Assembly: GCF_007004665.1 (NCBI RefSeq)
Contig: NZ_ML660055.1
Span: forward strand, 186,001-250,000
Source: Denitrobaculum tricleocarpae
GTDB taxonomy: Bacteria; Pseudomonadota; Alphaproteobacteria; Kiloniellales; Kiloniellaceae
DNA length: 64,000 nucleotides
Reading direction: 5' to 3'
In this document: piece by piece, positions 10,235-19,989 of the stretch
Position numbering within the stretch: position 1 is the stretch's first letter
Layout: each line of letters opens with the position of its first letter
Program-made: the position numbers and the translations under genes
The notes under the pieces: model-generated
Seen by the model: only the letters and a program-made list of their open reading frames with translations
Database searches by the model: none
Told to the model about the DNA's origin: nothing

Positions 10235-10417
10235 CACACAGCCGATCCCGGACACACACTTTGAGATCCCGTAATTCCAGAAACGCAATCCGCTACAATA
10301 TGTAAGAAGGTCTGAAACCGCGCGGAGTATAGGCAAAAGCGGACAGGGAGCAAGACTTGCACGCGACGGCAAAGCAGGAGTTGCCGGACCCCGCCCGGCA
10401 GCGGCATGAGCCGTGGA

Positions 10418-11203
10418 TCAATTGGCCCGGCTGATCCCGTTGATCAGGCGGCTGTTCCTGACCGCGCTGCGGATCGATTGCTGGAAACTGCCGAAGTTCT
10501 GGACCGTGACGTCGATATTCAGTTCCTGGCGCAGCGAACGTCCGTCGGCGGTGTTCACGATCACGCCGAGAATCTGATTTTGGGTGATCCGGTGCAGCGC
10601 CGCGCTGAAGCCGTTGCTGTCGTTGATCGCCACGCCGCTGTCGCCGGCCAAGGCTCCGAGATCCACATTGGTGGGAGCGACCGTCTGAAGGGGCACATCC
10701 GTTTCCCGGCCGAAATTAAAGGTTACGCCGCCACCCGGCGGACTTGCCGTGGAGGAGACCATTTCGGAGACCAGTCCTGACGGACTTACCTGCGCGACGG
10801 ATTCCAACACAAGGGCGCCATCCACGAAGGTCCGGATATTCGCCCCGATCGCCATTTCAAGGCCACCGACATTGAATGTGCCGCGCAGCTGCGAGAGTTC
10901 GGCAAGATCGACCGTCTCAAGTCCGTAAAAATCGTCCCTTGAGCTTTGGCCGGCACCGAAGTTGGCGGCTTTGAGCGAGGCGCGCCCCGCGGCATCCGCC
11001 GCGACCTGCGGTGCGGGCAGGGCCAGCGCCACGAGAAAACCCGCAAGCGCCAAGCCACTGCCCCAGGCCATCACCCCCCGTGGAAAGACTGCCCGCGTAG
11101 ACGGACCCCACGCAAACCGGCCATCAGCGGACGAGCTGCGATCTCCGCAGCGGACGGGCTTCAGGATGGCGAAAAACCGGGAGCGAGATATTCTTCTGGT
11201 CAC
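10418..11203 (-). CDS. Secreted protein of the Fap-like locus (LRG-motif protein)
   Basis: A 261-residue protein of unknown function. A basic N terminus of about 35 residues is followed by a hydrophobic export segment (GLALAGFLVALALPAPQVAADA). The mature part begins with DLAELSQLRGTFNVGG, then alternating hydrophobic strands (GLEMAIGANIRTFVDGALV), a middle Gly/Ser part and a C-terminal NIDVTVQNFGSFQQSIRSAVRN helix. It shares the LRG motif with the small protein at 12145. Start is GTG 11203, 4 bases after the C39 peptidase stop, with GGAGGTGAT 6 bases upstream, so it is translationally tied to the peptidase. I infer a substrate or accessory of the peptidase/export system. Confidence 0.75.
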   Translation of the reverse strand: MTRRISRSRFFAILKPVRCGDRSSSADGRFAWGPSTRAVFPRGVMAWGSGLALAGFLVALALPAPQVAADAAGRASLKAANFGAGQSSRDDFYGLETVDLAELSQLRGTFNVGGLEMAIGANIRTFVDGALVLESVAQVSPSGLVSEMVSSTASPPGGGVTFNFGRETDVPLQTVAPTNVDLGALAGDSGVAINDSNGFSAALHRITQNQILGVIVNTADGRSLRQELNIDVTVQNFGSFQQSIRSAVRNSRLINGISRAN

Positions 11204-11207
11204 GGCA

Positions 11208-12032
11208 TCACCTCCCCAACTCGTTGCGGCCGGGAAGATGCAGGGTGAAGGAGCTGATACCGGCGCGGTCCAGACCTTCGCCAATCGGTGATTTTGGCCG
11301 GACCCGCCAATCGACGGCCTTGTTGAAGTGCGCCCGGGCCGTCTCGATCTCATTGCGCGCGGCCAGGACGATGCCCCCGCCCCAGACCTTTTCGAAGTTG
11401 TCGCGGTCCCAGACCGTGGTTCCCAGGGCGGGATCCGCGACCACGACCCGGTTTTCCTCAATCCCCTTGACCACGACGAAGTGCCGGTACCCGCGGGTGT
11501 TGATCAGAACGATCCCGGGCACCCCGATCCGGGCCAGTTTCTCGAGCGACATCCTGAAGCCGTCGGACTTGAGACCGCGCTTATCCAGGAAGCGTTTCAT
11601 GTCCAGCATGGAGAAGCCGTCGGTCTGAATCTTGGCCTGATCCCCGGTCAGAAACATCTCTTCGAAGACCTCGGCCTCGCTGACCGGTGCATTGTAGTGA
11701 TGGGAGAGAAGGGTCGCGACCGCCGCCGAGCCGCAGCTGAAGTCATACTGTTGGCGGATCACGCGCTTCCAGCGCGCTTCCTTGAGGCTGGTCAGCTTGA
11801 GCGAGAAAGCACCGCCGGCACCCCAAACCCGGGTCTCACCCGCCTGTAGGTCCCCGGGCGACGAGGTGGCGGTCATAAAGCAAAACGCGAGCGGCAGGAG
11901 CGCAAGTTTCCAGGCGGCGCTTTTCCTGACCTGTCGCCCTGCCAGGCCGGCACTGTTCAGGCCAGAATCGGGCCAAGCTCGATTAGGCCGAATCCTGTCG
12001 GCCCGAATCCTGTCGGATCGAAACCTCTGCAT
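11208..12032 (-). CDS. Periplasmic C39-family peptidase (FapD-like)
   Basis: A 274-residue papain-like cysteine peptidase. An Arg-rich leader is followed by a hydrophobic segment (LALLPLAFCFMTATSS, about 43-58) that should anchor or export it. The C39 core has the oxyanion Gln and catalytic Cys in QQYDFSCGSAA (Cys100), His184 in GYRHFVVVKG and Asp200 in VVVADPALG. It lacks the ABC transporter domains of bacteriocin exporters, as does FapD of the Pseudomonas Fap amyloid system. Context (FapF-like barrel, Gly-rich secreted proteins) supports a FapD-type role, cleaving exported subunits or accessory proteins. The leader contains a 15-base tandem repeat encoding DRIRA/DRIRP. Confidence 0.85.
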   Translation of the reverse strand: MQRFRSDRIRADRIRPNRAWPDSGLNSAGLAGRQVRKSAAWKLALLPLAFCFMTATSSPGDLQAGETRVWGAGGAFSLKLTSLKEARWKRVIRQQYDFSCGSAAVATLLSHHYNAPVSEAEVFEEMFLTGDQAKIQTDGFSMLDMKRFLDKRGLKSDGFRMSLEKLARIGVPGIVLINTRGYRHFVVVKGIEENRVVVADPALGTTVWDRDNFEKVWGGGIVLAARNEIETARAHFNKAVDWRVRPKSPIGEGLDRAGISSFTLHLPGRNELGR

Positions 12033-12144
12033 GATCGAAATCCCTTAAAAGAATAGGCCTGCACACCTGCGTAAAGGCTCAACAGATGCCACCTTCAATC
12101 GCCCCCAGGCCGCCAATCCAAGAGGCCGTTAATCTAAGAGCCCA

Positions 12145-12570
12145 TTAATCCAAGAGATTGAACGTCACACCGATCGCGGCTTCGACTGCGTTGTTGTTCC
12201 CGGTCACGACATTCACAAGGCCCACACCGCCGAAGTTGTCGAAGGCGTTGTCCCCGAAACTGACTCCGCCGGTGGCGAAGGTATCGGCTGTGATGGCGCC
12301 ACCAACCACGCTCGCATTGAGATCCTGATCCGTCGCGACGGTGATCGAGGTACCGCCTTCGCGGCCACGCAATTCGCCCATCTGCGCAGCGTCGACAACC
12401 CCGACGTCTCCGAAGGCATTGGTTTCCGGAGAGGACACGTCCATGGAAGGCATGGCGTTGGACTTAAAGGGGTCCAGGCCCTGGCGATCTGCAAGCACAT
12501 CGCCTGCGTGGCTCTCGCTGCCGGCGATTAATGCGCCGACCGTCAGCAATAAAATAAGTTTCCGTCTCAT
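12145..12570 (-). CDS. Small secreted protein of the Fap-like locus
   Basis: A 141-residue protein with a signal peptide (MRRKLILLLTVGALIAGSESHA, cleavage near 22). The mature part has a QMGELRGREGG motif at about 64-74, then short strand repeats rich in Val, Gly, Asn and Phe, ending ITVNV-like in LVNVVTGNNNAVEAAIGVTFN. The NN/VEAAIG ending recalls amyloid-prone or beta-solenoid segments. ATG 12570 has GGGAG 7 bases upstream. It lies downstream of the Gly-rich genes, behind a terminator hairpin, and 112 bases before the peptidase gene. Minor subunit or nucleator is an inference from context. Confidence 0.7.
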   Translation of the reverse strand: MRRKLILLLTVGALIAGSESHAGDVLADRQGLDPFKSNAMPSMDVSSPETNAFGDVGVVDAAQMGELRGREGGTSITVATDQDLNASVVGGAITADTFATGGVSFGDNAFDNFGGVGLVNVVTGNNNAVEAAIGVTFNLLD

Positions 12571-12644
12571 GACACAGCTCCCGGTATCCACAGCTCACCC
12601 TTCACCTTGATCGCTCGGAGGGTGATTCCGCGTCTTTGACAGAT

Positions 12645-12685
12645 AAAAAATGTGAGGGGGATGGCGGAGTGTGCTCCGCCATCCC
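12645..12685 (-). terminator. Intra-operon terminator after the Gly-rich genes
   Basis: A 12-base perfect stem, GGGATGGCGGAG (12658-12669) with CTCCGCCATCCC (12674-12685) and a TGTG loop, followed on the minus strand after about 7 bases by a run of six T (12650-12645). It sits 20 bases beyond the stop of the second Gly-rich gene, so it should lower transcription of the small protein, peptidase and LRG-protein genes relative to the Gly-rich genes. Confidence 0.75.
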
Positions 12686-12705
12686 GGTCTCATATGCGCG
12701 TCTCG

Positions 12706-13830
12706 TCAGTTCCCGATACTGACCCCGGAGTGCGCCGCAACCGACACACCGCCCAAAGTCGCATTGTAGAAACCGGACGACACATTGATGTTGGCGATGC
12801 CGCCGAAGGTTCCGGCACCGACATCGATCGTGACCGGACCGGTGGTCAGCATGCCACCCTGGCCTGCGCCACCGTTTCCGCCGTTACCACCGGCACCACC
12901 GGCGCCACCCATGGCCGTCGCGACATCCGAAGTGGCATCGCCACCGTTGCCGCCCGTACCACCTGCACCGCCTGCGCCACCGGCACCGCCGGTTCCGGAT
13001 GCATCGGCAGAGGTCGCGCTTCCACCAGCACCACCGTTACCGCCCGTACCGCCGGTCCCACCGGTCCCGCCAGCTCCGCCGGTTGCGTTCGCACCGCCGT
13101 CTGCCGCAGGTCCGCCGTTGGCAATGTTGGTTCCGGCATCGGCGTTGCCGCCTGTACCGCCCTGACCGCCATTGCCTTCGCCGTTTCCATTGGCATTGGC
13201 GTTGCCGCCGTTTGCGCTGTTGTTACCCGAGTCGGTATCGCCCGAGCTTCCGGAAGCGCTGGCGGTTGCATCACCGCCGTGACCACCGCGTGCGGCGTCA
13301 CCACCGTTACCGCCATCGGCGCCGGATTCGGCATCGGCGTTGGATTCGGCATAGCCGTAAGCGCCATCGCCACCGTCACCGCCGCGTGCCCCACGGCCTG
13401 CGTTCCCGCCATCGGCATCGGAATAGGCTTCGGCATAGTCGCCGTTGCCACCGGCAGCGCCGTTCCCGCCGTTGCCGCCATTGCCACCCATCACACGGAT
13501 CGCCGAACCGGTCACGGTCGCGGTCATGTCCTGAAAGGAAATGACATCGAGGTCGGAGTTAAAAGACTCCGAATAGGCCGTCGCGGTTCCGCCGGCACCA
13601 CCGGCGCCACCGGCACCGGCCGCTCCAGCCGTAGCACCCGGACCCGCGTTGTTGGCATTGGCGTTGCCGCCATCACCGCCGGCACCGCCGTTAGCGTTGG
13701 CGTCTGCGTTTGCAATCGCCGAAGCTTCGTTGTCGTTGCCGAATTTGTTTTTCGGGTTTGCGGAGGCACCCGTTGCGAATGCCAGAACGAGAGCGATGGC
13801 CGACGTTCCCGCCAAAAGACTCTTTAACAT
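12706..13830 (-). CDS. PGRS-like glycine-rich secreted repeat protein B
   Basis: A 374-residue protein made mostly of GGX triplets (GGNGGxGGxGG, with Ala, Asn, Thr). A signal peptide ends at ASA near residue 25, followed by NPKNKFGND. Two non-repeat islands stand out: AYSESFNSDLDVISFQDM with TATVTGSAIRVMGG at about 85-120, and a C-terminal block of about 45 residues, GAGTFGGIANINVSSGFY and NATLGGVSVAAHSG. Both islands and the start are shared with protein A, so the pair arose by duplication. ATG 13830 has GGAGGAAAG upstream and is 25 bases after the stop of A. GGX runs of this kind form polyglycine-II bundles in some other proteins; that, and a fibre/matrix role, are inference. Confidence 0.85.
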   Translation of the reverse strand: MLKSLLAGTSAIALVLAFATGASANPKNKFGNDNEASAIANADANANGGAGGDGGNANANNAGPGATAGAAGAGGAGGAGGTATAYSESFNSDLDVISFQDMTATVTGSAIRVMGGNGGNGGNGAAGGNGDYAEAYSDADGGNAGRGARGGDGGDGAYGYAESNADAESGADGGNGGDAARGGHGGDATASASGSSGDTDSGNNSANGGNANANGNGEGNGGQGGTGGNADAGTNIANGGPAADGGANATGGAGGTGGTGGTGGNGGAGGSATSADASGTGGAGGAGGAGGTGGNGGDATSDVATAMGGAGGAGGNGGNGGAGQGGMLTTGPVTIDVGAGTFGGIANINVSSGFYNATLGGVSVAAHSGVSIGN

Positions 13831-13855
13831 AGTTCTTTCCTCCATCTCTCTTCGT

Positions 13856-15010
13856 TTACTGGGTTCCACCAGCAGCAGCTACATTGCCGATGTTCACGCC
13901 CGAATGGGCTGCTACAGACACGCCACCAAGGGTCGCGTTGTAGAAGCCCGAGGAGACATTGATATTGGCGATACCGCCAAAGGTTCCGGCACCGACGTTA
14001 ACCGCAACCGCACCTGTCGACAGCGTGCCACCGGCACCATTGCCGCCGACACCACCGTTACCGCCGTTGCCGCCGTTACCGCCGGTCGCGTTCGCTGCAC
14101 CGGCCGTTGCCGTGCCGCCGTTACCACCGGCACCGCCACCGGCGCCATCGCCGCCGGCACCACCAGATGCCGTGGCAGGTCCGGAGTTCGCGTTGCCACC
14201 GGTCCCGCCTGCGCCACCGGCACCACCGCTACCGCCGGCGCCACCAGCACCGCCGGTTCCGGTTGCTGCGCCGGCCGTTGCCGAGCCTCCCGTGGCCGAG
14301 TTCCCGCCGGCGCTGCCCGCACCGCCGGCACCACCGGCGCCACCGGCACCGGAATCGCCACCGTTGGCATTTGCGTTGCCGCCATTGCCGTCGTTGCCGC
14401 CGGAATCGGTGTTACCGCTGTTGCCCGCGGTATTCGCATCGCCGTTGCCGCCTTCACCACCACGACGTCCGTCACCGCCGTTGCCACCGTCAGCGGCAGA
14501 GCCGGCATTCGCGTTCGAATAGGCTTCGCCGTATTCGCCGTTACCGCCGTCGCCACCATTGCCGCCGCGCCGGCCATTGCCGCCGTTCGCTTCGGAATAG
14601 GCATCCGCGTAAGAGCCGTCCCCACCAATGGCACCATCGCCGCCGTTACCGCCGTTACCGCCAAGAATGCGGATCGGTGCGCCGGTGACGGCCGCAGTCA
14701 TGTATTGATAGGAAATCACTTCGACGTCTTCGTTGAAGGATTCGGCATAGGCCGAGGCCGTTCCGCCTGCTCCGCCCGCACCGCCGGCGCCCGCGGTCCC
14801 GGCTGTTCCGCCCGGACCTTCATCACTGCCGTTTGCATTGGCGTTCCCGCCGTTGCCGCCCGCGCCGCCATTGGCATTGGCGTTGGCCATTGCGTCTGCG
14901 GTTGCGGTGTTCCCGTCACCAAATTTATTCTTGGGGTTCGCAGACGCGTCGAGCGCGAAAGTCATAACGAGAGCAAGCGCCGAACTCCCTATCAAAAATC
15001 TTTTAAACAT
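13856..15010 (-). CDS. PGRS-like glycine-rich secreted repeat protein A
   Basis: First gene of the minus-strand operon; 384 residues. Signal peptide MFKRFLIGSSALALVMTF to ASA, then NPKNKFGDGN. Long GGX tracts (GGAGGAGGTGG, GGNGGDG) surround an island AYAESFNEDVEVISYQYM plus TAAVTGAPIRILGG, with a tail GAGTFGGIANINVSSGFY-NATLGGVSVAAHSGVNIGN (split here) nearly identical to protein B, then VAAAGGTQ. ATG 15010 has GGAGGGAG upstream. No cysteine is seen in the mature part, and no membrane anchor or LPXTG-like signal. Comparable low-complexity proteins are known as PE_PGRS in mycobacteria, but there is no PE domain here. I infer the main exported subunit of the FapF-like barrel. Confidence 0.85.
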   Translation of the reverse strand: MFKRFLIGSSALALVMTFALDASANPKNKFGDGNTATADAMANANANGGAGGNGGNANANGSDEGPGGTAGTAGAGGAGGAGGTASAYAESFNEDVEVISYQYMTAAVTGAPIRILGGNGGNGGDGAIGGDGSYADAYSEANGGNGRRGGNGGDGGNGEYGEAYSNANAGSAADGGNGGDGRRGGEGGNGDANTAGNSGNTDSGGNDGNGGNANANGGDSGAGGAGGAGGAGSAGGNSATGGSATAGAATGTGGAGGAGGSGGAGGAGGTGGNANSGPATASGGAGGDGAGGGAGGNGGTATAGAANATGGNGGNGGNGGVGGNGAGGTLSTGAVAVNVGAGTFGGIANINVSSGFYNATLGGVSVAAHSGVNIGNVAAAGGTQ

Positions 15011-15233
15011 AAGGCTCCCTCCTAAGGTCTAGATGATGCCTGCTGACTACCTGAAGATCTTGAGACGCCGGACCGATGGTGAGCTGAACATAGTGTCCCC
15101 ATAGTCCGAGGTTCCTGGCGCCCGGATGAGTTGAAGCCCTAGAATGGAAGGAGTATCGGCCGCTGTCGTGCCCCATTTGGGTCAGATTTGGTGTGAAGAG
15201 CGCCTTTTAATACAACTTTCACAGGATTTCTGA

Positions 15234-16454
15234 TCAGGCCTCTCCATGGGGGCGGCTGCGTACCACTCCGCGCTCGTCGAAATGCAGGTCGAAGCAACCT
15301 TCACGCCTCGCTTCAGGCAGGCGAAACGAGGCCGGTCCGGTCAGGATCAGGCGAACAAGTTCCGATTGACGGTCGATACCGGTCTTCGAAAAAATCCGTT
15401 TCAGATGGGTGCGCACGGTCTGATATTTGATACCCATGCTCTCCGCCGCCTCATCGAGCCGGTAACCGTTGGAGAGGAGCCTGGCCAGCTTGGCTTCGGT
15501 GGGCGTGAACTCGTAGAATTTGACCAGCTGGTCCTCGCGGATCCGGCAGCGGTACTCGGGATCGCTGATGATCAGGATCGACCCGGCGCCGTTTTCCTCG
15601 TCAATCACGCTCTCCCTGCATAAGGGGATCAGAATCAGGGTCACCGGCTCCGGCCCCTCAGACCTCATGACCGACATTTTGCGGCCCTCGGCGCCATTTC
15701 CCGCCGATTTCAGGAAAGCCTGGAGGCTTGGTTTGAATCTGTCCAGCGTAACGGCTGAACCGTTTTTCCGGTGGCTGTCGTTCTGTTCTTTCGACAGCCA
15801 ACTGACCGCCATCGCATTGGCTTCCATCACCCGGCCATGCCCATCCAGCAAAGCCACGCCGACGGAGAGGGCGCCGAGCATTTCCATCAGGATCTGTTGA
15901 GAGAAGTTCGATGTGCCCAAGAGTTCGTGCACCTGTATGATCCGCCGGAAGTGCGGCATCACCTGCTCAATCAGGGCCAGGTCGCCGGCCTCGAATGGCC
16001 CTTCGGCCTGAGGCCGGCCGAACCCCGCGCAGATCAGGCGCTTGTCCTTGCGCGCCAAAACACCCCAGGCGCAATGATGGACTCCCGCCGGCTGCAACCA
16101 GTCCCGATAGAACCTGCTGTCGCGCAACTGCTCGAAGGGAAGGATCTCCTCACCCGACACCACGGTGTCGGTGTTCCGGAAAAAGCGCTCGTCACGGAAC
16201 CAGGCATTCGCAGGCGCACCCGGCTCTGAATACTGCCGCACCAAAAGTTCGGAGAGATTCTCGGCGTGTTCGATCCGGCCAGCTCCGCTGTCGAAGTCGT
16301 GCGATACGATAAGCCCGACGCTGGCCCGGCAGGTCGACATGACCGACTTTACGGCGGGTGACCAGGTCGAAGGTGTTTCAACAGCCTTATAAAAAGCCGA
16401 CAGCAAAGCCGCCAGTGTGCCATCTGATGTTTCGCGCAGTAGGGAGTTCAGCAT
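15234..16454 (-). CDS. LuxR-type transcriptional regulator of the Fap-like locus
   Basis: A 406-residue regulator with a C-terminal LuxR/GerE helix-turn-helix (FTPTEAKLARLLSNGYRLDEAAESM, then YQTVRTHLKRIFSKTG, about 315-365). The N-terminal 300 residues have PAS-like features (LGALSVGVALLDGHGRVMEAN at about 205-225) and no autoinducer-binding or receiver signature that I recognise. It is encoded immediately upstream of the Gly-rich operon on the same strand (224-base gap) and divergently, across a 990-base AT-rich region, from the FapF-like gene, so it is the natural candidate to control both. ATG 16454 has GGGGCGGA upstream. Confidence 0.85.
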   Translation of the reverse strand: MLNSLLRETSDGTLAALLSAFYKAVETPSTWSPAVKSVMSTCRASVGLIVSHDFDSGAGRIEHAENLSELLVRQYSEPGAPANAWFRDERFFRNTDTVVSGEEILPFEQLRDSRFYRDWLQPAGVHHCAWGVLARKDKRLICAGFGRPQAEGPFEAGDLALIEQVMPHFRRIIQVHELLGTSNFSQQILMEMLGALSVGVALLDGHGRVMEANAMAVSWLSKEQNDSHRKNGSAVTLDRFKPSLQAFLKSAGNGAEGRKMSVMRSEGPEPVTLILIPLCRESVIDEENGAGSILIISDPEYRCRIREDQLVKFYEFTPTEAKLARLLSNGYRLDEAAESMGIKYQTVRTHLKRIFSKTGIDRQSELVRLILTGPASFRLPEARREGCFDLHFDERGVVRSRPHGEA

Positions 16455-17445
16455 AGTTCCGCCCCGAATCATTTCCGGAGCAGGCCCACACTCCAGGTGA
16501 ACCTGCTCGCATTATCTGAGTTGGATCGGGTTCACATATGTTGGCGAAACCACAAGGCGCTTCCGACAAAACAGAATCCGATCTGGGCTTCTCCTCCGGT
16601 CCGGCCGGCACCTTGGACGCTCTTGATTGCATGCTCTGAAGTGCGGTCTGTCTTAAATTCACCCGCACTCAGCTAATAGTTGTCTTTCAGTGCGCCCGTG
16701 AAGGTGGGTGCACCGACGCAATGAGCATGCCGGACAGCCGGACGAGAAGCAGAACAAATTTTCACTTCATCGCACAGACAGCACCGACGCTTTCGCGCAG
16801 TGAGGTGGGAACGAACAGCAATATCAGTGCACGCCGAGGCACATCAAACCTATCTGCATGAGCAGAGATAGGGCTATGACCCCCTTGCACGATCGGCACT
16901 ACGTAAATTTTCTTATTTTCCTATAATACTCGTTGTTTAGGAATTTTTACGTAGAAATCGAATGCTTAATATATGTGGTATACATCATAGCAATTATTAT
17001 GCCAAATGTAATTTTATTTACATAACAAAGCGCTAGTCTTAAGACTTGATTTTCGTTAACCATAATTGTAAAGATTTCATACAGCCATGCGCTGCATTTT
17101 CGGCAGGATGTGTAGACAATCGGCTCATTAATGTGTGTTTTTTTAATTACTTAGACTATAAAAACCAAAAGTTTCAGGTTGTAAAATTTTTCGACTCATC
17201 TGTTTTTCTGCGATAATTTTTTCCGAACGCACCCGCATCAAGGCAGAGGCAGAAAGTCGTTTCCGTGAAGGAAGACGCATGAGGACACAACGGCAGAGTT
17301 ATTTACAAACTGTCGTAAATGAAAAATCTGAATAGTAGAAATTTCTATCTATAAGAGTATACTCCAGAAAAGCGTTTGTTTCATTCACGACAACTCATCG
17401 GCGGGAGATTTTAAAACCAGATAATTGAATTTGAGGGGGTATCAA
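16455..17445. promoter_or_regulatory. Long AT-rich regulatory region with several palindromes
   Basis: No gene is visible in this 990-base gap, whose part from about 16900 is strikingly AT-rich compared with the rest of the window. It contains CTACGTAAA (16899-16907) paired with TTTACGTAG (16946-16954), a perfect ATGTAA-N6-TTACAT palindrome (17006-17023), TTTAC-N8-GTAAA (17302-17319) and TAGAAATTTCTA (17336-17347). GTAAA/TTTAC recurs in three of the four. These are candidate operators for the LuxR regulator or a global regulator. The left end (16511-16575) holds a partial repeat of family A. Confidence 0.5.
16511..16575. repeat. Intergenic repeat family A, partial copy
   Basis: Resembles the second half of the copy at 45423-45555: a GGGTTCACATATGTTGGCG box followed by AAACCACA and CGCTTCCG, matching GGGTTCACATGTTTTAGCG, AAAACACA and GTTTCCG there. 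The first half with the ATCGCC hairpin is absent. Confidence 0.45.
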
Positions 17446-18822
17446 ATGAAATGGCAATCTGCCGCTGCAATTACGATTTCCGTGCTCTCCTATCCGGCTG
17501 GCCCTCTGGCAGCTCAGACGCTGCCATCAGCAACCGTTCAGCCAAGTGATAAATCACTCACCACTGCCCAGGCGGCAAACCTATCGCTCGAGGCCAAACT
17601 GGCCCGTCTCGAACGCGCGTTACAGCAACAGCGCGAAGAGATCGACTATCTTAAAAATCAATTGCTCTCCCAAAGCAGGGGCGGCCGGTCACCAGCCTCG
17701 GACGTCCGACTCAATTACGGAACGACCGGCCTGACGGATTATGCGTTCGAGCCGCCCACCGACGCCCAAGGCAGTCAGCAAGACTGGCTCAGCGCCAAGA
17801 CCCGGGCATCGAATCCGCAACAGCAGCGACCGGTTCAAACCGCTCAACAAGACCAGCAGCAGCCCGTCGGGAAACCGCCCGAAACGCCCGAGCGAAAGGT
17901 TCCCGAGGTTCAGGCCATTCCGGAACTGGGGGGTGTCCTCACACCGGCAGGCAAGCTTATCGTCGAACCCTCGCTCCAGTATTCCCATTCGCAGGTCAAC
18001 CGCTTCACCTTTCTGGGCATCGAAATTCTGGACACCTTCCTGATCGGACTTCTGGAAGCCGAGGACACCGACCGGGATCTCTTCACCCCGGCGCTGACCG
18101 GGCGGCTGGGGATCACCGATCGTTTCGAGCTCGAACTGAAGGTCCCCTATGTGATCCGGAACGACCGCGTCAGCTTCGTCATCCCGCAGGTCGACCCCAA
18201 CGCGACCATCACACAGGAGCTGGACGGCAACGGGCTCGGCGACATCGAGGTGGCAGCTCATTACCAGATCAACAACGGCCTGAACGACTGGCCGATCTTC
18301 ATCGGCAACCTGCGCTACAAGTCGACCACCGGAACCGGACCCTTCGACGTCAGCCGCGATGCAAACGGCCTGGAGACCGAACTGCCGACCGGCTCGGGAT
18401 TTCATTCGGTGGAACCCAGTATTACAGCGCTCTATCCTTCTGATCCTGCTGTGTTTTTCGCAAACCTGGGATATCTTTACACGGTCGAGGACGATGTGGG
18501 CGAGAACTTCAACGATCAGAACATCGGCAACGTCGATCCCGGTGACGCCTACCGGGTCAGTTTCGGGATGGCTTATTCAATCAACGAACGCACCTCCTTC
18601 ACCCTGGGCTACAAGCACGACTTCATCGGGGAGACGGATACCGAGGTCAACGGCGTGACGCTCTCGAGCAATACCCTGGATGTCGGGTCGCTTCTTCTGG
18701 GCTACAGCTTCCAGTTCGACGAGAACCTGGCCGCAAATTTCAATCTGGAACTGGGCGTGACCGCGGACGCACCGGACGTGCTCATGACCTTCCGGATGCC
18801 ATTCCTGATCGACGTGTTTTAA
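17446..18822 (+). CDS. FapF-like outer-membrane transporter
   Basis: A 458-residue outer-membrane protein. Signal peptide to about 24 (PAGPLAAQ), a coiled coil at about 46-76 (LEAKLARLERALQQQREEI), a Gln/Pro-rich linker, then a beta-barrel from about 165 that starts PELGGVLTPAGKLIVEPSLQ and continues with SVNRFTF-like, TGRLGITDRFELELKVPYV, LPTGSGFHSVEPSITALYPS, ending in aromatic FLIDVF. Coiled coil plus trimer-type barrel is the architecture of FapF, the secretion channel for Fap amyloid subunits in Pseudomonas. ATG 17446 has GAGGGGGT just upstream. It is divergent from the regulator and Gly-rich operon, so I infer it exports those proteins. Confidence 0.82.
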   Translation: MKWQSAAAITISVLSYPAGPLAAQTLPSATVQPSDKSLTTAQAANLSLEAKLARLERALQQQREEIDYLKNQLLSQSRGGRSPASDVRLNYGTTGLTDYAFEPPTDAQGSQQDWLSAKTRASNPQQQRPVQTAQQDQQQPVGKPPETPERKVPEVQAIPELGGVLTPAGKLIVEPSLQYSHSQVNRFTFLGIEILDTFLIGLLEAEDTDRDLFTPALTGRLGITDRFELELKVPYVIRNDRVSFVIPQVDPNATITQELDGNGLGDIEVAAHYQINNGLNDWPIFIGNLRYKSTTGTGPFDVSRDANGLETELPTGSGFHSVEPSITALYPSDPAVFFANLGYLYTVEDDVGENFNDQNIGNVDPGDAYRVSFGMAYSINERTSFTLGYKHDFIGETDTEVNGVTLSSNTLDVGSLLLGYSFQFDENLAANFNLELGVTADAPDVLMTFRMPFLIDVF

Positions 18823-18867
18823 AGTTGAAGTGGCGACCGAGCGGCGGATCTCTCCGGGCTAAGCCTC

Positions 18868-19989
18868 TTAAGTCCGCTCGCTCTTGCGCTTGCGTTCGGA
18901 TTCGGACTTGAGCTGGCCGCAGGCCGCCAGAATGTCCTCGCCGCGCGTCGCCCGGACGGGTGCGGAGAGCTGCCCGTCGTTCAGGATCTTCGCGAAGCGG
19001 TGGATCGCATTGTTCGAGGAACACTCGAAGAAGGAGCCCGGCCAGGGATTGAAGGGAATCAAATTCACCTTTGCCGGAATGTCCTTCAGCAGTTTGATCA
19101 GCGCCCGTGCGTCCTCGGGCGAGTCGTTCACGCCCTTGAGCATCACGTATTCGAAGGTGATCCGCCGCGCGTTGTTGGTGCCGGGATAATCGCGGCAGGT
19201 CTGCAGCAACTCCTTGAGCGGATACTTCTTGTTGATCGGCATGATCTTGTCGCGGGTCTCGTCATCGACCGCATGCAGCGAAACCGCGAGATTGACCCCC
19301 AGCTCCCGCCCGCAGCGTTCCATCTCTGGAACCACACCGGAGGTCGAGAGCGTGATCTTGCGCTTCGATATGGCGACGCCCTCGCCATCCATGGCGATCT
19401 TAAGAGCGGTCGCGACATTGTCGTAGTTATAAAGCGGCTCGCCCATGCCCATCATCACCACATTGGTGATTTTGCGGTCCAAGCGGGTGCTCGGCCACTC
19501 GTCCAAGGCGTCACGCGCCAGCATGATCTGACTGATGATTTCCGCCGGGGAGAGGTTACGGACCAGCCGCTGCGTGCCCGTGTGGCAGAATTTACAGGTC
19601 AGGGTACAGCCGACCTGGCTGGAAACGCAGAGCGTGCCGCGGTCTTCCTCGGGGATGTAGACCGTCTCGACTTCCTGACCGTCGGCGAAGCGCAGCAGCC
19701 ATTTCCGGGTCCCGTCCGCGGAGGTCAGGTCCTGAACCACGTCGGGCCGGCGAACCACAAAGCTCTCTGCAAGCCGGGCACGGAAAGCCTTGCTCAACGA
19801 GCTCATCTCGGCGAAGTCGGTGATGCCTTTGCTGTAGATCCAGTGCCAGAGCTGGCGGGCGCGAAAGGCCGGCTCGCCAAGGGCCGTGATCTCAGCCTCA
19901 AGCGCCTCGCGGGAGAGCCCCACAAGGTTCTTGAACTCCGCCGAATCGCTCGGCGGCGCAAACAGCTCAGCGTGCGCGGTTCCAGCCAT
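18868..19989 (-). CDS. rlmN: Dual-specificity 23S rRNA/tRNA adenine-C2 methyltransferase RlmN
   Basis: Radical-SAM enzyme methylating A2503 of 23S rRNA and A37 of some tRNAs. The 373 residues include the [4Fe-4S] motif CTLTCKFC (Cys128, 132, 135), the GEPL motif in [13 protein letters not shown], and the family ending [10 protein letters not shown] with a downstream Cys (FFECSSN) that can serve as the methylated cysteine. Length is usual. It is convergent with the FapF-like gene (45-base gap) and is followed upstream on the same strand by an IalB-family gene. Confidence 0.95.

Follow-up and report, generated by a model that had tools for sequence, protein, structure and literature searches.

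A FapD/FapF-type locus, probably acquired horizontally, that may build a glycine-rich extracellular fibre or matrix in Denitrobaculum tricleocarpae

Few routes are known by which unfolded fibre subunits cross the outer membrane. The described system closest to the locus considered here is the Fap system of Pseudomonas (fapABCDEF), coded for by one co-directional operon that ends in fapF. In the portion of PMC5557850 on which we draw, Fap secretion is said to be lost on mutation of FapD or FapE, an active-site mutant of the peptidase FapD abolishes secretion of FapC, and the target of FapD is called unclear. The accessible part of a 2013 survey (PMC3792158) places Fap only in beta-, gamma- and deltaproteobacteria, records that fapA is often lost, and treats FapD and FapF as parts of two larger families. 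Here we describe a locus from the alphaproteobacterium Denitrobaculum tricleocarpae (family Kiloniellaceae), located in a stretch of 64,000 nucleotides (assembly GCF_007004665.1, contig NZ_ML660055.1, positions 186,001 to 250,000), the whole of which is called the window below. On the evidence of its sequence this locus is a variant of FapD/FapF-type secretion with glycine-rich cargo, belonging to a separate, large branch. We propose, with a probability of roughly 0.68, that it was acquired horizontally and builds a glycine-rich extracellular fibre or matrix.

Like the Pseudomonas system, the locus combines a FapF-type channel, a C39 peptidase without ABC domains, a FapE-like protein with an RGx[FY]-type motif, and subunits coded in one gene series. 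It is unlike that system in having glycine-rich proteins with GGX-type repeats (hereafter GGX proteins) as cargo in place of any match to FapB or FapC, in the separate clades to which its FapF and FapD proteins belong, and in the placement of its barrel gene on the other strand. The gene content that a preliminary description had listed from the letters alone, namely a FapF-like barrel protein, a C39 peptidase, tandem GGX proteins, two small secreted proteins and a LuxR regulator, was found in full, and the recurrence of the same set in other genomes indicates that it is not a chance assembly. Its central members are as follows, the signal peptides and the coiled coil having been judged by eye:

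17446..18822, plus strand: FapF-type outer-membrane channel, with a signal peptide, a coiled-coil-like segment, a linker and a barrel
11208..12032, minus strand: FapD-type C39 peptidase, with an export segment (by eye) and without ABC domains
10418..11203, minus strand: FapE-like secreted protein, so called from position and motif, with the leader-type motif ELSQLRGTF; predicted peptidase substrate
12145..12570, minus strand: small secreted subunit, with the leader-type motif MGELRGREGG and one C-terminal beta-unit-like segment
12706..13830, minus strand: GGX1, a secreted glycine-rich repeat protein with a conserved C-terminal unit ending in AAHSGVSIGN
13856..15010, minus strand: GGX2, a second, tandem glycine-rich repeat protein with a C-terminal unit as in GGX1

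Mycobacterial PE_PGRS proteins also carry GGX-type repeats; the likeness is confined to these repeats, the GGX proteins of the window have no PE domain, and we claim no homology between them.

The barrel protein matches the FapF chains in PDB (5o65-5o68) over residues 167-453 with a best E of 1.4e-27, the NCBIfam FapF model with E 2.1e-40 (138.8 bits, short of the 700 set as cut-off) and the Pfam family Phenol_MetA_deg with 1.4e-07. The peptidase matches Pfam Peptidase_C39 (5.8e-23) and the NCBIfam FapD model (E 5.2e-44; 150.2 bits against a cut-off of 330), and its profile recovers from PDB the double-glycine protease 6mpz (E 1.6e-15) as well as 4ry2 (3.4e-10); no ABC domain match was obtained for it in the Pfam and NCBIfam scans. 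Its residues Q94, C100, H184 and D200, which we take to be the catalytic ones, are invariant in all 12 aligned rows. These model and PDB matches, the former being the check envisaged in the preliminary description, place the FapF and FapD likeness above a general barrel or C39 level. According to the part of PMC5557850 used here, the plug of Pseudomonas FapF is held by E98-K401, and an alanine change of either stops secretion; if our matching of the latch positions is right, the place of E98 is acidic in 13/13 aligned rows and that of K401 is an arginine in 11 of the 13.

The Fil-type pilus locus of Acinetobacter, with FilB as peptidase and FilC as channel, shares with the window the pairing of a C39 peptidase with a FapF-like channel, and the accessible part of PMC11784438 counts FilA among the surface fibre proteins of Tol 5 and calls it a Fil pilus subunit. 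FilC was the next match of the barrel protein after FapF (E 1.6e-16) and FilB also matched the peptidase (E 8.4e-35), but both score lower than their Fap counterparts (120.5 bits for FilB versus 150.2 for FapD, and 60.6 for FilC versus 138.8 for FapF), and the other locus proteins gave no Fil match, FilA included, in a library whose content of Fil subunit models is unconfirmed. We therefore consider a Fil-type pilus very improbable.

The preliminary description had also reported that FapB/FapC-type subunits are missing, and this holds: the FapB and FapC models are blank in the window's own genome, in a search in which no control genome gave a signal, yet both models do match proteins from L033 and L034, two loci of alphaproteobacteria. 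No FapA match appeared in the NCBIfam scan, the presence of a FapA model in that library being unconfirmed. Both GGX proteins match 0 Pfam families, and the four secreted proteins other than the barrel protein and the peptidase draw no Pfam family at E 1 and nothing credible from NCBIfam, where the one match (E 0.048) is at chance level. In L034, which comes from the window's own family, the matches are FapB 4.2e-27, FapC 2.2e-22 and FapE 2.9e-25, all below the curated cut-offs; they are FapB, FapC and FapE matches in an alphaproteobacterium, a class beyond the range given in the accessible part of the 2013 survey. As a separate observation, L034, L098, L099 and L100 are alphaproteobacterial fap-type sets with an extra gene of ~200 residues, with a PDPxT-like end, between fapE and fapF.

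We then considered how widely this gene set occurs and how closely its cargo is linked to the channel. A FapF-like protein is present in 15 of 58 relatives, the window's own genome counted, and in 38 of 385 alphaproteobacterial genomes at E 0.001, 18 of these being stronger than 1e-30. The set that recurs at many of these loci comprises a long cargo gene, sometimes two, together with a small secreted gene, a C39 gene and a FapE-like gene, with the FapF gene nearby and often on the opposite strand. Cargo varies by locus among N- or Q/N-rich repeat proteins (370 to 2273 residues), glycine/asparagine-rich proteins and GGX proteins, the last being the form found in the window's genus. A scan of named genomes gave 456 FapF relatives, of which the best 80 were taken as named loci; barrel and peptidase were called within one locus in 60 of these 80, with the FapE-like gene in addition in 55, and with the small gene as well in 44. 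Where gene calls were blank (barrel in 3 loci, peptidase in 17), tblastn on those 20 loci detected the barrel in 20/20 and the peptidase in 3 (L127, L167, L198). Consequently 17 of the 80 have no peptidase match, 8 of them with ~10 kb either side and the remainder with less; the eight long ones indicate that barrel and peptidase, though strongly linked, do not always go together across the wider branch, and none of the eight has a FapF identity of at least 52%.

The signature of the GGX C-terminus, sought in six frames independently of gene calls, lies near FapF in 38 of the 41 named loci whose FapF is at least 52% identical to that of the window and in 0 of the 39 below, a cut fixed after the data were seen and on identities transcribed by hand (L163, at 51%, has no signature). 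Two of the three misses above the cut, L144 and L149, are on contigs that stop less than 200 bp from the barrel gene, and the third is L157. A profile of the GGX C-terminus matches in 3 of 398 genomes of the phylum, each with a strong FapF match, and in the two besides the window's own it lies ~2 kb from the best FapF match; among the 58 relatives only three genomes of the window's genus have it, together with FapF, and a fourth of the genus has neither. The window itself shows the features that define the clade, an AAHSxVxIGN-type C-terminus near FapF, FapD, FapE-like and small genes. The co-occurrence of FapF homologs with glycine-rich genes, which the preliminary description had put forward for a survey, is thus conserved in other genomes. 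We also observed in Azohydromonas (L197:13216-15000) a cargo protein with 26% glycine and 41 GGX triplets whose terminal Q/N unit lacks the AAHS signature, possibly an intermediate form.

Phylogenetic trees place the locus on a branch of its own. A quick FapF tree of 87 of 122 rows (35, chiefly near-copies, were left out by hand) recovers canonical Fap, the other branch and the 19-row GGX clade with Shimodaira-Hasegawa-like approximate likelihood ratio test supports of 100, 99 and 98, respectively; a careful tree of 44 hand-chosen rows gives 100/100, 100/100 and 100/99 for the same groups, and a FapD tree of 43 rows gives 100/100 for Fap and 94/82 for GGX. The window's locus falls outside the canonical Fap clade in both the FapF and the FapD trees. 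L033, with FapC-like subunits, is outside both main groups on a long branch in the quick tree, as are a few further groups, and it is absent from the careful FapF tree. Aidingimonas lacisalsi (L123:2327-14158) has a fap-type operon, whose FapF belongs to the canonical clade, beside a GGX locus, and this occurrence side by side marks the two as separate systems.

The GGX clade unites the window's Kiloniellaceae genus with Halomonadaceae, Nitrococcus, Motiliproteus and Thiohalobacter and is mostly gammaproteobacterial, whereas the wider branch also includes Sphaerotilaceae, Zoogloeaceae and one metagenome-assembled genome labelled Cytophagales. The suggestion of an undescribed Fap-type branch in alphaproteobacteria accordingly stands as to the separate branch and fails as to the taxon, since most of the GGX clade is from Gammaproteobacteria and the window's copy looks acquired. 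We found no description of this FapF/FapD branch among titles and abstract starts in the open-access literature, preprints excluded. What emerges is that FapF relatives belong to a broader family of loci whose cargo is interchangeable and extends to glycine-rich repeats in halophilic and marine bacteria. Two observations on the margins of this family are added here. The Cytophagales-labelled contig L169 carries the locus with a FapF 42% identical to that of the window and may reflect contamination of the assembled genome. The distant FapF-like genes L035:9913-12087 and L036:9369-10838 lie near genes resembling type I secretion genes (by eye), with a C39 gene in L035 and, in both neighborhoods, small proteins with SESLAA-like ends; L035 and L036 form with L102-L105 a further group in the quick FapF tree.

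A conserved motif in the FapE-like and small proteins points to them as candidate substrates for the peptidase. In the FapE-like proteins an R-G pair is invariant in 13/13 aligned rows, and in a wider set of 87 the R is present in 87/87, the first G (-2) in 86/87 and the second G (-1) in 74/87, the remaining 13 having R or K. Numbered backwards from a cut one residue beyond R-G, the rows have L, I or V at -12 in 84/87, E at -8 in 39/87, L or M at -7 in 87/87 and L, M or V at -4 in 69/87. These 87 rows were chosen with a profile from 13 loci and hence lean towards the motif; they exclude L121, L122, L156, L162, L164 and L173 (repeat genomes), identical sequences, rows that score better as the small protein, and the window's own row, which the gene caller missed and which is included in the 13-row alignment. 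Among 64 small proteins the G is kept in 61, the R in 46 and L or M at the -7 place in 60; one such leader motif, from L097, reads LSPEDLAALNGG. In loci matched by the FapE model the pattern recurs with R or K after R-G in 19 of 22 (17 read on both strands; L076 and L083 taken from an earlier right-strand reading of 10 loci), L084, L086 and the partial match L088 being without it. The residue after R-G thus differs between the two kinds of protein, being G in 74/87 FapE-like rows, while those Fap-type FapE rows in which we read the motif have R or K.

Leaders cut by C39 peptidases have L at -12, E at -8, L at -7, a hydrophobic residue at -4 and a GG, GA or GS end, as given in the parts of PMC6363468 and PMC7018657 drawn on here. 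In light of this fit to a double-glycine leader, we predict that the FapD-type peptidase probably acts on the FapE-like and small proteins. A conserved candidate cut-site is thereby offered for FapD, whose target is called unclear in the part of PMC5557850 cited above, and it makes the question testable by point mutation. The peptidase resembles those of double-glycine leaders (LahT, ComA, PCAT1) in both its profile and the leader pattern, but unlike these the window has no ABC transporter, and the substrates have Sec-type signals (by eye), so that cleavage would be periplasmic. The same resemblance could indicate maturation of bacteriocin-like peptides by a C39 peptidase acting on double-glycine leader peptides, and the peptidase model of the NHLM transporter does match (E 9.4e-15); the lack of an ABC part, the Sec-type signals and the synteny with a FapF-type channel and long repeat cargo make this reading scarcely credible.

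By eye, the leader motif is found in the small and FapE-like proteins and not in the GGX proteins, and one could accordingly suppose that the channel exports the former two only, while the GGX proteins stay in the periplasm or leave by another route. We judge this improbable, since the GGX genes head the same gene series, the GGX signature tracks a single channel clade, and in Fap the bulk cargo FapC is likewise unprocessed, as stated in the accessible part of PMC5557850.

The C-terminal units of the secreted proteins connect this locus to its relatives. The last 62 residues of the small protein match units of other loci at a score reached by 0/2000 shuffles with each of three models. Compared as a profile, the GGX C-terminus reaches P 5e-5 against small proteins of the GGX branch, 1e-4 against non-GGX cargo and 0.0034 against the remaining small proteins (probabilities of 67.5, 56 and 9.4, respectively; reversed controls 0.026-0.15). 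Single-sequence tests gave 12-152 of 2000 shuffles reaching the score with the cargo model, 71-652 with the model of all units and 1256-1465 with small proteins only, and pairwise comparison with the small protein gave 12 to 212 of 5000. A shared origin of the GGX C-terminal unit and the units of other loci is likely from these comparisons. A further idea, that a GGX protein is a small protein split by a glycine-rich insert, was rejected, its first half being unsupported (315 and 3414 of 5000 shuffles).

The same units bear on whether the product might be an ordinary functional amyloid exported by the same route, in which the GGX and small proteins form the cross-beta structure through their C-terminal units and the glycine-rich part is a passive spacer. 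The unit of the small protein is clearly common to other loci, non-GGX cargo carries such units as N- or Q/N-rich repeats (with a FapB match of E 0.00042 in L031), and the GGX C-terminus is linked to two of the three profile sets at the P values just given. Against this, each GGX protein has a single unit with weak single-sequence support, and the GGX genes as called are 25-36% glycine, with many glycine columns invariant across 16 aligned GGX proteins. An amyloid of this kind is hence, in our view, unlikely, if a contender of some weight.

Taken with the synteny, these observations lead us to favor export of the glycine-rich proteins themselves as a fibre or matrix. The subunits would enter the periplasm by Sec, as the signal peptides seen by eye suggest. 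There the C39 peptidase would cut a leader of the double-glycine type off the FapE-like protein and the small subunit, as the motif implies, and removal of the leader might license or start export. The FapF-type channel would then pass the unfolded GGX proteins, as its synteny with their genes and the known role of FapF suggest. Outside, the GGX proteins would assemble, and their C-terminal unit, likely akin to those that occur as repeats in the cargo of relatives, would act as an assembly or export element. In this account the homologies, the gene set, its separate branch, the tie between cargo and channel, the motif and the insertion come directly from the sequence comparisons, and cleavage, export and the fibre are inferred.

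Several points weigh against this reading. At the predicted cut-site, the window has T at -1 in its FapE-like protein (LRGTF) and R in its small protein, and R or K occupies this place in the 13 of 87 rows noted above; the FapE model found no match in the window's own genome. The stretch of Pseudomonas FapE missing from mass spectrometry is ~70 residues long, according to the part of PMC5557850 drawn on, and by our own count the RGR site of L109 is at about residue 40, so that a cut there would be too short for the gap. L161, L175, L176, L180, L185, L187, L188 and L192 have no C39 match with ~10 kb on each side of the barrel; L157, which is in the GGX clade of the FapF tree, has neither peptidase nor signature in the 2.2 kb that follow its barrel gene and may truly depart from the GGX linkage. 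The GGX C-terminal unit appears only moderately tied to the units of other loci. The AlphaFold prediction for GGX1 has a predicted local distance difference test score (pLDDT) of 35, from which we make no statement on its fold; that of the FapE-like protein has a pLDDT of 59, and its fold search against PDB returned nothing at E <= 0.001.

More broadly, and tentatively, the family could represent a general exporter of low-complexity matrix proteins, with a periplasmic C39 peptidase acting on Sec-exported proteins that bear double-glycine leaders and one clade having a non-amyloid, perhaps polyglycine-helix, GGX fibre in place of the amyloid subunit; Pseudomonas FapE would then have a degenerate leader and be the true FapD substrate, cut after RGR or RGK. 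This generalization is weakened by the peptidase-less loci, the FapE rows without the motif and the ~70-residue peptide gap.

The locus occupies the interval between argG and rlmN:

10366..18868, no strand: insert, approximate extent, between argG and rlmN; absent from genome G003

Genome G003 belongs to the same genus; its argG and rlmN matches are ~170 bp apart, and it aligns to the window at 10315-10365 and then from 18869 onward, which defines the locus as a discrete insert of ~8.5 kb. As its nearest kin are in another class, horizontal acquisition is the simplest reading and the probable one, with loss of the locus from G003 a possible alternative.

The remaining features concern regulation:

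15234..16472, minus strand: LuxR-type regulator between cargo and barrel gene (Pfam GerE, 1.6e-06)
16500..17445, no strand: AT-rich intergenic region upstream of the barrel gene, with 43% guanine plus cytosine versus 60.7% for the window
12650..12693, minus strand: hairpin (inverted repeat) separating GGX1 from the small gene, followed at a short distance by a U6 run

The minus-strand series runs GGX2, GGX1, small gene, C39 and FapE-like gene, and luxR is on this strand too, whereas the barrel gene stands alone on the opposite strand, diverging behind the AT-rich region. The earlier picture of genes arranged around one regulatory region thus holds in part. For the FapE-like gene the most likely start is GTG 11203, preceded by a GGAGG site and lying 4 bp past the C39 stop; the starts of the small gene (ATG 12570) and GGX1 (ATG 13830) were chosen by judgement.

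The terminator scan of the window did not list the hairpin after GGX1, which has a fold z of -3.76; a hairpin with other stem letters is in the same place in L021 (z -4.15) and not in L160 (z -0.12). It may be a partial terminator that holds cargo output above that of the minor genes. The GGX genes of the window have no sigma-54-type site, and none is present in 16901-17445 either. Across loci, such a site is upstream of 14 of 32 GGX genes versus 61 of 1427 other genes (15/36 versus 67/1500 with duplicate loci included), and in L022 and L024, the two relatives tested by Pfam, a sigma-54 activator is next to the barrel gene, versus LuxR in the window.

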